From Salinirubrum litoreum (GTDB taxonomy: Archaea; Halobacteriota; Halobacteria; Halobacteriales; Haloferacaceae): a DNA stretch of 64,000 nt. Below are positions 53,035-59,930 of this stretch, in pieces. Under the pieces are notes generated by a model. It was not told where the DNA came from. It did not search any database and worked only from the letters and a program-made list of their open reading frames with translations. Made by a program: the position numbers and the translations under genes. The stretch's first letter is position 1; every line of letters begins with the position of its first letter. Location: NCBI RefSeq assembly GCF_020567425.1, contig NZ_JAJCVJ010000001.1, positions 1-64,000 on the forward strand. Direction: 5' to 3'.

Positions 53035-54861
<1,827 letters not shown>

Positions 54862-54948
54862 ACGGCGGCGGTCGACTGCTCGGCCGACTGCGCGAGTCGC
54901 CTCCGACCCACCTACGGTTCCGGTGCGTTCCAGCGACTTCGTGCGTGG

Positions 54949-54957
54949 ATTTTTATC
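54949..54957 (+). promoter_or_regulatory. TATA box for the CHAT-like gene
   Basis: ATTTTTATC lies inside the longest possible reading frame of the downstream gene and about 28 bases before the in-frame GTG at 54983. This argues that translation starts at that GTG and that the gene has its own promoter. Confidence 0.6.
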
Positions 54958-54982: not shown

Positions 54983-57184
54983 GTGTTCGACGAGGAGTTC
55001 CCGAATCGGAGCGCGCACACGCCGTCGATCCACGCGAGCGACGCCTCGGGACTCCGCGTCCACGATCCGATCCAGCACACGTCCTACGAACTCCAGACGC
55101 CGGGGGCGGTCCGACCGACACCCGTCACGAACCCACCTTTCGAGATGCCGGTGGACACGGCAGTCGGCGTCGAGACGGACAGCCTCACCGTCCCGTGGAG
55201 TCCGGAGACCTACGTCTTCCGCGACGGGCACGTCGTCGCAGAGACGCAGTACGACGAGACGAGGCACTTCGCGACCGGGCCGCTGACCCTCCAGGTGAAC
55301 AGCGGGCCGACCGTGCTCTATCTCCACGCTCCTGCAGGCGTTCGCATCGTCGGTGAGCGAGCCCACGTGCGCTACGAGTTCGACGACCCGGTCGTCACGG
55401 TCGGCGTGCGATCCTACCACGACGACCCCGCCGGAACCGTCACGACGACGAGCGACCCGACAGACCTCTGTCGAGCGGTCTCGCGGCTCGGATCGGCGCT
55501 CAAGACGACCGGGCCCGAGCGAAGTTTCCCGACGCTCCGGGGCCATCCACCACTGCTCGAACTCGGCTCGTCGTTCGCCGTCTCCGGCAGTGTCGAACCA
55601 CTCGACACCGGCGTCTCGATCGAAGTGCCCGCCGACCCCGAGTACGTCTTTCCGGTCGGTTCACTCGCGTTCTACACCGGTGCGACCGTCGTCCCCGGCG
55701 GCGATCCGCGACTCTACGCCGACGGCGAGTCGTGGTCGCTGTCCGAGGGTGGGCGACTCGCCAATCGGGTTGATGTCGCCGGGAGTGGCGACAGATCGGC
55801 CGACGGACGTGGCTCGTCCGGGTCGACGTTCGAGAGGGTCGTCGCCGAGGTGCTGAAACACGTGTTCGTCCTCGACTGCGTGACGCGCACCTACGGCTAC
55901 TACCCGGTCGAGACCCGCGAGCGTGCGGCGGTCGAGTCCCGGACTGCAGTCGACTTCGCGTCGCTCTACGACGCTTCCCTCGCCGAGCGCGTCGCGGCGT
56001 ATCTCTCGGTCCCCTTCGAGTCCGTCACCCCCTCACGACCGGTCTGGCGGATGACGGCCGACCTCGAGCCACGAGTCGAACACGTCGAACTGCTTCCCTA
56101 CACTGCACGAAATCTCGCCACGGTTCGGTGTCCGGACCCCGACCCGGTAGTGAGCGATGCGGAGGAATCTGCGGCCGTCTCGTCGTTCTTCCGGGCCGGC
56201 GACCCTGCCGACGACGAGCGCCGGCCAGTCGGATCCCTCCCGGCGACCGACGACGAGGTACGACTCCCGGACACCAGCGCGCGTGAACACGTCTGGGCCG
56301 GCGAGGGCGTCCCGCAGAACGCCAGCCTGCTCACCCGGCCGTCGTTCCGCCGGGCGCTCCAACACGAACCGAAGTCCGAGGCGGCCGCGGTCGTCGACGT
56401 CGTCTGTAACGATCACCGGATGGCGTCGGAGGGAGACAGTTGGCCCGGGTCGGACGCCGGGACCGACGACCGTCTCGACGTACAGACACACTACGACCTC
56501 TCCGTCGCGGAACTCGAAGCGCTGTTCCGGCAGGACACCGACTTCCTGCACTACGTCGGCCACGTCGACACCGACGGCTTTCGCTGTGCCGACGGCCACT
56601 TCGACGCCCGGACGCTGGAGCGGACCGGTGTCGAGTCGTTTCTGTTGAACGCCTGTCGGTCGTACACGCAGGGGAGAGCGCTGATCGAGCGCGGGAGCGT
56701 CGGCGGACTCGTGACGCTCTCCCGCGTCGGCAACGAGTCGGCGAGTCGGATCGGGCGGCTGTTCGCGCGCCTGCTCGGCACCGGATACACCCTGTCTGCG
56801 ACGACCTCGATCGCTCGGATCGCGGAAGCTTCCGGTCGTCGCTACGTCGGACTGGGCGTGCAGGACTTCGAGGTGGTGACGAACGTCGGCGGACACCAAC
56901 TGTTCAACGTCGTCGAACGCGTCGACGGAGCAGAGAGCGCGGGCGAGGCGGCGTACGACCTGACCGTCCACAGCTACCCGGTCTCCAGAAACGGACTCGG
57001 GACCGTCGGCCGGACGCTCGTCGGCGCTGACTCCGACTCCGAGCGGTTCCTCGTCCCGCCGGGCGGCGAGACGTGCCGGGTCTCGCGGACCGAACTCCTC
57101 GAGTACCTCGAACTGGACACCACACCGGTCCTGCTGGACGGTCGGCTGTACTGGAGCGACGAGCTCGACGACCCGACACTGTGA
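54983..57184 (+). CDS. CHAT/caspase-like putative cysteine protease
   Basis: The 733-residue protein has a long beta-rich N-terminal region (about 1-300, no family recognised), a helical middle and a C-terminal caspase-fold-like domain. There HYVGH527-VDTDGFRC is followed 31 residues later by SFLLNAC558-RSYTQG and then GGLVTLSRVGNESASRIGRLF, the order of the catalytic His and Cys blocks in CHAT and caspase-like (C14 clan CD) proteases. No TPR repeats or signal peptide are seen. It lies between a biotin-carboxylase gene and birA on the same strand but has its own TATA box. An upstream in-frame GTG at 54923 would add 20 residues. Protease activity is inferred. Confidence 0.75.
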   Translation: MFDEEFPNRSAHTPSIHASDASGLRVHDPIQHTSYELQTPGAVRPTPVTNPPFEMPVDTAVGVETDSLTVPWSPETYVFRDGHVVAETQYDETRHFATGPLTLQVNSGPTVLYLHAPAGVRIVGERAHVRYEFDDPVVTVGVRSYHDDPAGTVTTTSDPTDLCRAVSRLGSALKTTGPERSFPTLRGHPPLLELGSSFAVSGSVEPLDTGVSIEVPADPEYVFPVGSLAFYTGATVVPGGDPRLYADGESWSLSEGGRLANRVDVAGSGDRSADGRGSSGSTFERVVAEVLKHVFVLDCVTRTYGYYPVETRERAAVESRTAVDFASLYDASLAERVAAYLSVPFESVTPSRPVWRMTADLEPRVEHVELLPYTARNLATVRCPDPDPVVSDAEESAAVSSFFRAGDPADDERRPVGSLPATDDEVRLPDTSAREHVWAGEGVPQNASLLTRPSFRRALQHEPKSEAAAVVDVVCNDHRMASEGDSWPGSDAGTDDRLDVQTHYDLSVAELEALFRQDTDFLHYVGHVDTDGFRCADGHFDARTLERTGVESFLLNACRSYTQGRALIERGSVGGLVTLSRVGNESASRIGRLFARLLGTGYTLSATTSIARIAEASGRRYVGLGVQDFEVVTNVGGHQLFNVVERVDGAESAGEAAYDLTVHSYPVSRNGLGTVGRTLVGADSDSERFLVPPGGETCRVSRTELLEYLELDTTPVLLDGRLYWSDELDDPTL

Positions 57185-57287
57185 CCGTCTGGTCGCCGCA
57201 GGACGGTGGCGTCACGTCGGTACTCGCTCTGACGGAGGTTCGGTGTGTGACGCCACCGTCAATACGTGGGCGGCCGAACCCGGTGGC

Positions 57288-58280
57288 ATGACCGAGACAC
57301 GGCGGGCACTGCTCGACGCGTTGGCGGCGGGGCCGGTCGCCGGGCCGGCCTTCGCCGAGGCACACGGCGTCTCACGTGCGGCCGTCTGGAAGTGGATCGA
57401 CCGTTTCCGCGAGGACGGGTTCGACGTCGAGAGCACCGACGAGGGGTACGTGGTACGGTCGGTGCCGGCGTTCGGCGGGTCGGCCGTCGAGTTCGGACTC
57501 GACGCGCCGTACCGCGTCGAGTACCACGACAGCATCGGCAGTACGAACGACCGCGCCCGCGAACTCGCCGCCTCGGCCGACCGCGACGAAGTCGTCGTCC
57601 TCGCGGACGAACAGACCGGCAGTCGGGGTCGACTCGACAGGGAGTGGACCGCGCCGTCCGGTGGAATCTGGGCCAGTCTCCTGCTCGCCCCCGAGCGTCC
57701 ACCGGCACACGTCCCACTGTTCACGCTCGCCGCCGCGGTCGCGACCACGAGCGCCTGCCGCGAGGCGGGTGTCGACGCCCGGATCAAGTGGCCGAACGAC
57801 GTGCTGGTTCCCGGGTCCACCGTCGACGACGCGACGGCAGGGACCGGCCGGGAGAGCGCGGGCGAACGCGGACGCGGCGGAGCGAAACTGGCGGGGATCC
57901 TGACCGAGATGGAAGGCGAGGCGGACCGCGTCTCGTGGCTCGTCGTCGGGATCGGCGTGAACGCGAACGTGGCTCGCGAGTCCCTCCCGGTAGGGGCGAC
58001 GAGCCTCCGCGCCGAGACCGGCGACGTCGACCGCCGGGTGTTCGTCCAGCGACTGCTGGAGCGGTTCCACGAGTTGCGCGAAGCCCCCGAGTCGGTGCTG
58101 CCGGCGTGGCGCGAGTACAGTGCCACACTCGGCCGACGCGTACGTGTCGAGACACCCGGTGGCGTCGTAGAGGGGGAGGCGGTGGACGTGACCTTCCCCG
58201 GCGCGCTGATCGTTCGGACCCCGGACGGCGAGCGCACCGTCCACGCCGGCGACTGTGAACACCTCCGGACCGCGGAGTAG
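57288..58280 (+). CDS. birA: BirA-type biotin protein ligase with N-terminal HTH
   Basis: The 330-residue protein has a winged helix at residues 1-55 (FAEAHGVSRAAVWKWIDRF), the biotin-binding loop GSRGRLDR (111-118), KWPNDV with K167, and KLAGILTE in the ligase core, plus the small C-terminal SH3-like domain. It makes biotinyl-AMP and attaches biotin to BCCP. The HTH suggests it also represses biotin or carboxylase genes. A ~25-residue Gly/Arg/Thr-rich insertion lies between KWPNDV and KLAGIL. The BCCP substrate is encoded 2.4 kb upstream. Confidence 0.94.
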   Translation: MTETRRALLDALAAGPVAGPAFAEAHGVSRAAVWKWIDRFREDGFDVESTDEGYVVRSVPAFGGSAVEFGLDAPYRVEYHDSIGSTNDRARELAASADRDEVVVLADEQTGSRGRLDREWTAPSGGIWASLLLAPERPPAHVPLFTLAAAVATTSACREAGVDARIKWPNDVLVPGSTVDDATAGTGRESAGERGRGGAKLAGILTEMEGEADRVSWLVVGIGVNANVARESLPVGATSLRAETGDVDRRVFVQRLLERFHELREAPESVLPAWREYSATLGRRVRVETPGGVVEGEAVDVTFPGALIVRTPDGERTVHAGDCEHLRTAE

Positions 58281-58331: not shown

Positions 58332-59126
58332 TTACGCCGAGTCGCCCGACTCCTCGTCGCCGGCGTCGTCTGCCTCCCCAGTCGCGCCAGCGCCGGCGGA
58401 TTCGGTGTCGTCCGTGGTCTCGCCGAGTTCGTCCCGGAGGAGGGCCAGTTCGGACTCGATCTCGTCGTCGGTCTGGATGCGGTCGAGTTCCGCCTCGATG
58501 TCGTCCTCGTCGCCGAAGACGCCCGTCCGACCCAGTGCGTCCTGCTCGTCGAGTTCTTCGAGGGCGGCAGTCCGGGCCTCCAGTTCCGCGGTTCGGTCGG
58601 CCACGTCGCCGATCGCGGTGTCGGCCTCCGAGAGACCGCCGTCCTCGCCGGTGTCGGCCATCGTCTCCGAGACGGTGAGATCGGCTTCGGCCGCCTTCCG
58701 GCGCGCCTTCAGTTGCTCGCGTTCGGTGCGGAAGCGTTCGATCCGGCGTTCGAGGTCGTCCCGGCGTTCGAGGAGCGTCTGCTGGGCCGACTCCAGTTCG
58801 TCGATGTCGGCCTCCAGGTCGTCCAGGTCCTGCATCTCGGCTCGCTTCCGGCGGAGTGCCTCACGCGCGAGGTCGTCCCGGCCGGCGGCGACCGCCTCTC
58901 TGGCCTGCTCGTTTCGGTCGGCGACGCGCGATTCCACGTCGTCCCGGCGTGCTTCCAGTCGCTTCTTCTCGGTCACGAGGTCTGTCAGTGCCGACTCGAC
59001 CTTTGAGAGTTCGTCCTGCAGTCGCTCGTAGGTGTAGTCCAACTGCTCGTCGGGGTCCTCGAGTCTGTCGAGGAGCGAGTTCATCTTCGCACCGAAGAGG
59101 TCGGAGGTCCGGTCGAGGATTCCCAT
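58332..59126 (-). CDS. pspA: PspA/Vipp1 (IM30) family membrane-stress protein
   Basis: The 264-residue protein has the ESCRT-III-like PspA layout: a short amphipathic N-terminus (MGILDRTSDLFGAKMNSLLD), then long coiled-coil helices (about 25-175) rich in Arg/Glu/Leu, and a disordered acidic tail. Such proteins form rods or rings that protect and remodel membranes; haloarchaeal PspA homologues are associated with salt and membrane stress. It converges with birA, the stops being 50 bases apart. Confidence 0.9.
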   Translation of the reverse strand: MGILDRTSDLFGAKMNSLLDRLEDPDEQLDYTYERLQDELSKVESALTDLVTEKKRLEARRDDVESRVADRNEQAREAVAAGRDDLAREALRRKRAEMQDLDDLEADIDELESAQQTLLERRDDLERRIERFRTEREQLKARRKAAEADLTVSETMADTGEDGGLSEADTAIGDVADRTAELEARTAALEELDEQDALGRTGVFGDEDDIEAELDRIQTDDEIESELALLRDELGETTDDTESAGAGATGEADDAGDEESGDSA

Positions 59127-59294
59127 ACCCCCACTGCGGCCTCTCGGAACTTATCGGTTCGTGCCGGTGGAGGTGAGTCAGGGCGCTCGGTCGCCGGTCT
59201 CCGCTCGACTCTCGTCGTCCGTCGGTCCGACCGTTTTCAGTCGCTGGGAATCTCGGCCGCGATTATGGGGGACTCGTCCCTACCGTTTCCCACG

Positions 59295-59930
59295 ATGACG
59301 GGTGTTCGAGCCGAGGTCGAGGTCAGTGAACCGGGGAGTTGTCCGGTGGCGAGCGTCTCGGAGTCGGTCGAGGGGTCCGTCGGCTCTGTCTCGTGGACCG
59401 CCAGCGACGACGCCGTCACCGAGGAGTTCACGGTCGAGACGGACGACGACTCGCTCGACAGTGCCGACGTCGAACGCGTCTTCGACTACGGATCGGAGTC
59501 GGTGTACCAGTTCCAACGAGACGGGGGTGACTGCGTCTGTGAGGTCGTCGAGTCGGTCGACTGTCCGATCGCGGACGTGCGCGCCGAGCGTGGGTCGCTT
59601 GTCCTGACGCTCCACCTCGACGAGATGGCCGACCTGCGGACGTTGGTCTCGACGCTCCGCGAGCAGTTCGGCGGTGTCGGGGTGCGATACCTCGCCCAGG
59701 CGAGCGCCGAGGCGGCAGAGGGTAGCGATCTGGTGCCGGTGGATCGCGGTCGGCTGACCGACCGGCAGGAGGAGGTGCTCCGCACGGCCCACGAGATGGG
59801 CTACTTCGAGTACCCCCGCGACTCCAACGCGACCGAGGTCGCAGCGGCACTCGACATCCGCCCCTCGACGTTCACAGAGCATCTCTCGGCCGCACAGTCG
59901 AAGCTGTTGGACGACTTGCTCGCCGACTGA
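59295..59930 (+). CDS. HTH_10 (bacterio-opsin-activator-type) transcriptional regulator
   Basis: The 211-residue protein has an N-terminal sensory alpha/beta region and a C-terminal HTH_10 domain: LTDRQEEVLRTAHEMGYFEY, then a second helix pair SNATEVAAALDIRPSTFTEHLSAAQ. This is the Bat-like helix-turn-helix family expanded in haloarchaea; no PAS or GAF module is present. ATG 59295 is preferred because ATTATGGG around 59260 is in TATA position for it. It is divergent from pspA, which makes pspA a candidate target. Confidence 0.9.
   Translation: MTGVRAEVEVSEPGSCPVASVSESVEGSVGSVSWTASDDAVTEEFTVETDDDSLDSADVERVFDYGSESVYQFQRDGGDCVCEVVESVDCPIADVRAERGSLVLTLHLDEMADLRTLVSTLREQFGGVGVRYLAQASAEAAEGSDLVPVDRGRLTDRQEEVLRTAHEMGYFEYPRDSNATEVAAALDIRPSTFTEHLSAAQSKLLDDLLAD

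Follow-up and report, generated by a model that had tools for sequence, protein, structure and literature searches.

Proteins of the CHAT domain family (PF12770), for example SAVED-CHAT (PDB 8tl0), have a caspase-type fold in which the catalytic residues follow one another in the order GH...C, and the same clan CD fold is found in separase (PDB 5fby, 5fc2) and in the gingipain RgpB of peptidase family C25. In extracts of the haloarchaeon Haloferax volcanii, proteolysis is reported to be dominated by a caspase-like activity for which there is no matching gene (PMC3615174). We have analysed a stretch of 64,000 nucleotides from Salinirubrum litoreum (contig NZ_JAJCVJ010000001.1, positions 1 to 64,000), referred to here as the window, in which a gene lying between a biotin carboxylase gene and a biotin protein ligase gene encodes a CHAT-like protein. 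We consider it probable that the product is a regulated cytoplasmic clan CD cysteine protease of CHAT/caspase fold, with a role as effector in stress or defence.

The gene occupies positions 54983..57184 of the forward strand, a frame of 733 open codons starting at GTG, as established by reading of the open reading frame and by the homologue family. GC content per codon position is of the coding type (0.70/0.51/0.84), the protein is acidic (D+E = 15%) and a search for transmembrane or hydrophobic segments in it revealed none, properties which together fit a cytoplasmic haloarchaeal protein. The gene proposed in an earlier sequence-only reading is thus real, and the neighbours named there are identified as such by Pfam, with a biotin carboxylase-BCCP fusion (accC-like, 53035..54861, forward strand) upstream and a biotin protein ligase with an N-terminal HTH (birA-like, 57243..58280, forward strand) downstream. 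An alternative in-frame GTG at 54923 would extend the CHAT-like protein by 20 residues. Following the spacing rule for archaeal TATA boxes, the TATA-box-like TTTTTAT at 54950..54956 (forward strand), ~30 bp before the GTG at 54983 and recognised by sequence reading only, is compatible with a leaderless start at this codon and suggests that the gene may have its own putative promoter, rather than being expressed purely by read-through from accC. A scan for promoters and terminators of bacterial type gave no match. For the birA-like gene, a later ATG at 57288 suits the homologues better, alignments beginning at ~residue 13-16. Shortly beyond birA lie a PspA/IM30 gene (58332-59126, reverse strand) and a DmsR_N/HTH_10 regulator gene (59265-59930, forward strand).

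The AlphaFold model of the protein (pLDDT 87.3, pTM 0.89) separates into three domains. The C-terminal domain, residues 425-733 (56255..57181, forward strand), is assigned as a caspase-fold, CHAT-like protease domain from the model, from Foldseek and from the CHAT profile matches of relatives. Its elements are arranged as beta-alpha-beta-alpha-beta(His)-hairpin-beta(Cys)-alpha-beta-alpha, which is the caspase order, and two successive core strands carry the predicted catalytic residues at their ends, the His after strand 3 and the Cys after strand 4, positions that are conserved in relatives. The model and Foldseek together place the domain in the caspase-haemoglobinase fold characteristic of clan CD. 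The best Foldseek matches are SAVED-CHAT and separase (E 6e-6 to 1e-5), followed by gingipain RgpB (E 2.5e-4), with procaspase-3 lower on the list. The whole-chain comparison gives low global TM-scores (about 0.2 relative to query length, 0.1-0.5 relative to target length), as expected if the C-terminal domain alone is shared. Upstream of a low-confidence linker at ~residues 404-424 (56192..56254, forward strand; pLDDT <50 at 398-421), none of the N-terminal ~400 residues was recognised as belonging to a known family. The description of the N-terminal part as beta-rich holds for residues 15-155 (55025..55447, forward strand), a beta domain by AlphaFold secondary structure with weak, non-significant Foldseek matches to beta-sandwich parts of glycosidases; it does not hold for residues 159-403 (55457..56191, forward strand), a middle domain which the model and alignment show to be alpha/beta to mostly helical. 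The middle domain contains the invariant residues R180, R186, D298, R302, Y329, Y340 and W355, and the N-terminal part, being conserved among paralogues, may hold a binding site or domain interface common to them.

Both predicted catalytic residues stand where they had been placed from the sequence, His527 (56561-56563) within the HYVGH motif at 56549..56563 and Cys558 (56654-56656) within the FLLNACRS motif at 56639..56662, all on the forward strand, the latter being followed by GGLVTLSRVGNES, the strand after the Cys motif and the start of the next helix. Alignment of 46 homologues, the check proposed for these residues, found both invariant, as are H523, G526, C535, D537, N556 and S560, and with these eight residues unchanged the motif pair is not a chance occurrence. 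A CxDG hairpin (C535-A-D537, 56585..56593, forward strand) is invariant between the catalytic His and Cys in this alignment and is retained in outgroup copies; C535 is a third conserved Cys, which might permit redox control. In a wider set, the HYxGH...NxCxS motif was found in 73 of 77 sequences with a His-Cys distance of 31-33, and two of the four exceptions are outgroup copies retaining GH and NSC. Catalysis by an H527/C558 dyad is accordingly predicted from fold and conservation. One family member (L092:3487-6063) has HYIGD and LDAAN in place of HYxGH and NxC, both catalytic residues being gone, and one copy of a tandem CHAT-like pair (L123:5445-7301) stops before the catalytic Cys at 618 aa; therefore not every member of the family need be a protease. 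The former represents a natural pseudoenzyme form and a ready control for protease-independent roles.

By profile search, the window protein and most of its family score under the Pfam CHAT cut-off. The window protein alone gave no match to Pfam, NCBIfam, PADLOC or PDB sequences, and none to the Pfam CHAT profile (PF12770) up to E 10. The latter matches 19 of 46 family members, weakly (best E 4e-5); its best score in the window genome, 16.8 bits, falls short of the cut-off of 24. Thus, the window protein is CHAT-like by fold and dyad and not a member by the Pfam score rule. One family member matches the peptidase C25 profile weakly. The C14 (strict caspase) profile has no match among the window protein and the 46 members, the family alignment, used as a profile against PDB, found none, and a viral fold library search returned nothing below E 0.001. 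Combined, the model, the Foldseek matches, the sub-threshold CHAT matches and the near-invariant His and Cys uphold the CHAT/caspase fold that had been read from the motifs.

The family is large and specific to a part of the archaea. Seven paralogues are present in the S. litoreum genome, the window copy and six others. Of 60 genomes sampled from the same taxonomic family, 47 have members; across the phylum, 50 of 295 genomes do, all from the haloarchaeal order except four, which belong to one other family. Members are also carried on 25 plasmids. Most are annotated as hypothetical; the names 'caspase family' and 'CHAT domain-containing' are given to a few, so the caspase-type fold is not a first sighting here. 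What is undescribed is the family itself, together with its N-terminal module and operon partner; our literature search on DUF7504 and on haloarchaeal CHAT domains found nothing. In three genomes of the one non-haloarchaeal family, the outgroup copy has as neighbours a small conserved gene and one resembling an acetyltransferase gene, and two of the three also have a gatE-like gene nearby, a deeply conserved locus.

A gene with a DUF7504 domain, assigned by Pfam in six cases, lies immediately upstream on the same strand at 22 of 72 distinct CHAT-like loci, mostly overlapping the CHAT-like gene or within 70 bp of it. One DUF7504 copy in the window genome also matches a KaiC-like ATPase profile below the cut-off (E 1.6e-5), pointing to a possible RecA/KaiC-type domain. 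DUF7504 occurs at 14 places in the window genome, only two of which adjoin CHAT genes, and constitutes a large unexplored haloarchaeal family. In a separate clade, seven CHAT-like copies sit upstream of a TbsP-type regulator. This synteny extends across several haloarchaeal families, as seen at six loci, and TbsP-linked loci often also carry glyA or folD. The window copy has neither a DUF7504 nor a TbsP-type neighbour.

The protease reading proposed above builds on the predicted fold, conservation of the dyad, the size of the family, the partner and the recurring gene order described below. The N-terminal ~400 residues, comprising the beta and middle domains, would most likely hold the H527/C558 protease inactive in the cytoplasm until a triggering signal or partner binds, the partner in many relatives being the KaiC-like DUF7504 protein encoded directly upstream. 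Once activated, the protease would have one or a few host proteins as its cleavage substrates, with a stress- or defence-response phenotype as the presumed outcome. The window copy is solitary; its expression may be tied to the carboxylase genes, and its substrate need not be. More tentatively, and with the balance of probability against it, the pairing might represent a haloarchaea-wide two-component proteolytic switch, with DUF7504 as the KaiC-like sensor and the CHAT protease as the effector under its control, expanded to many copies per cell. If true, this would give archaea a counterpart to the caspase-based signalling of stress or death, and the orphan caspase-like activity of haloarchaeal extracts would have a genetic source in it.

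The alternative that survives best narrows this role to a specific antiviral defence or programmed-death effector, like SAVED-CHAT, gasdermin-linked CHAT or Csx29. SAVED-CHAT is indeed the top structural match, the family is multi-copy, patchy and partly plasmid-borne, and a subset of loci has the KaiC-like partner. However, PADLOC defence models gave nothing above noise, with no match to a known CHAT defence system, and the inspected neighbours included no recognisable gasdermin, CRISPR or cyclase gene. In addition, copies adjoin housekeeping genes and the TbsP-syntenic clade spans families, a pattern more like that of a cellular regulator. A dedicated defence role is conceivable but doubtful.

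The position between the carboxylase and its ligase had raised the further question of a biotin link, in which the protease would serve biotin/acyl-CoA carboxylase physiology by sensing biotin, biotinyl-AMP or unbiotinylated BCCP and cleaving the carboxylase, the ligase or a regulator. Accordingly, accC-birA neighbourhoods were surveyed in 31 genomes, 16 of which have the two genes within 3 kb. A CHAT-like gene lies between them in only two, the window genome and Halobacterium sp. DL1; nine of the fourteen genomes lacking it were read at gene level and the rest judged from coordinates. In favour of the link, each of the 13 genomes sampled from the genus that includes strain DL1 has the CHAT-like gene beside accC and in the same orientation, the other genomes being assigned to Halobacterium as well; the order accC-CHAT-birA was read at gene level in five of them, and the remaining eight were judged from coordinates. 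Since the order recurs outside the source species, in a distant genus, it is not a one-species accident, and a one-off insertion was rejected. In the full tree the window copy has no resolved position; with long branches, three aberrant rows, removed, the six accC-linked copies form one group with support of 78.8, which is not significant. The arrangement may go back to an old shared position that was later lost in places, to the block having been transferred, or to two insertions. In other haloarchaea, at six loci, the accC-birA gap is filled by differing unrelated genes, as would be expected of a spot that tolerates insertions. VNG1533H of H. salinarum may, judging by its gene number, be the copy in the accC-birA slot of that species, which would then place this copy under redox control. 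VNG1533H (arCOG06229, uncharacterised) belongs to the RosR oxidative-stress core regulon (PMC3443676).

Against the link, most accC-birA pairs have no CHAT-like gene, the gap can be occupied by unrelated genes, and the TATA-like element suggests that the window gene may be transcribed separately. Most CHAT-like paralogues have no biotin gene as neighbour, and paralogues with the same invariant residues adjoin DUF7504, TbsP and many unrelated genes, so linkage to biotin as a family-wide property was rejected. In our estimation, a role in biotin metabolism is improbable. Least probable is that the window copy is a pseudoenzyme or decaying paralogue whose fold is kept for binding only: its long branch (1.27), loss of several otherwise near-invariant residues and the existence of the L092 copy are in keeping with this, and the gene may be under relaxed constraint, but no invariant active-site residue, H527 and C558 included, has been lost, and the frame and its coding bias are intact.

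A regulated CHAT-like protease, the reading we prefer, makes this family a plausible candidate source of haloarchaeal caspase-like activity. The CHAT profile finds no match among H. volcanii proteins, and the same profile misses most members in the window genome. A conserved, multi-copy family with intact active sites supplies concrete candidate genes for the 'missing' archaeal caspase-like enzymes, and the DUF7504 pairing together with the undescribed middle domain offers a new route to how CHAT proteases are switched on.

Among database entries, the Halomarina 'caspase family protein' WP_254546615.1 (38% identity to the window protein) and the Halorussus 'CHAT domain-containing protein' WP_253484706.1 (35% identity) belong to the same family under automatic names, most members being entered as 'hypothetical protein'. 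With gingipain RgpB the window protein has the clan CD fold in common, whereas it shows no signal peptide, other signs of secretion or hydrophobic segment. Separase has the same fold and a similar Foldseek score, but the window protein is archaeal, 733 aa in length and about 11% identical, with no cohesin-type substrate known. Relative to CHAT (PF12770), the fold and the GH...C order of the dyad are shared, and the window protein differs in its His-Cys spacing of only 31 and its invariant CxDG hairpin. The likeness to SAVED-CHAT extends to the architecture, the protease domain being C-terminal behind a large regulatory region in both; in the window protein, in contrast, no SAVED domain is recognised and the protease domain, below Pfam CHAT detection, is identified by its caspase-type fold.
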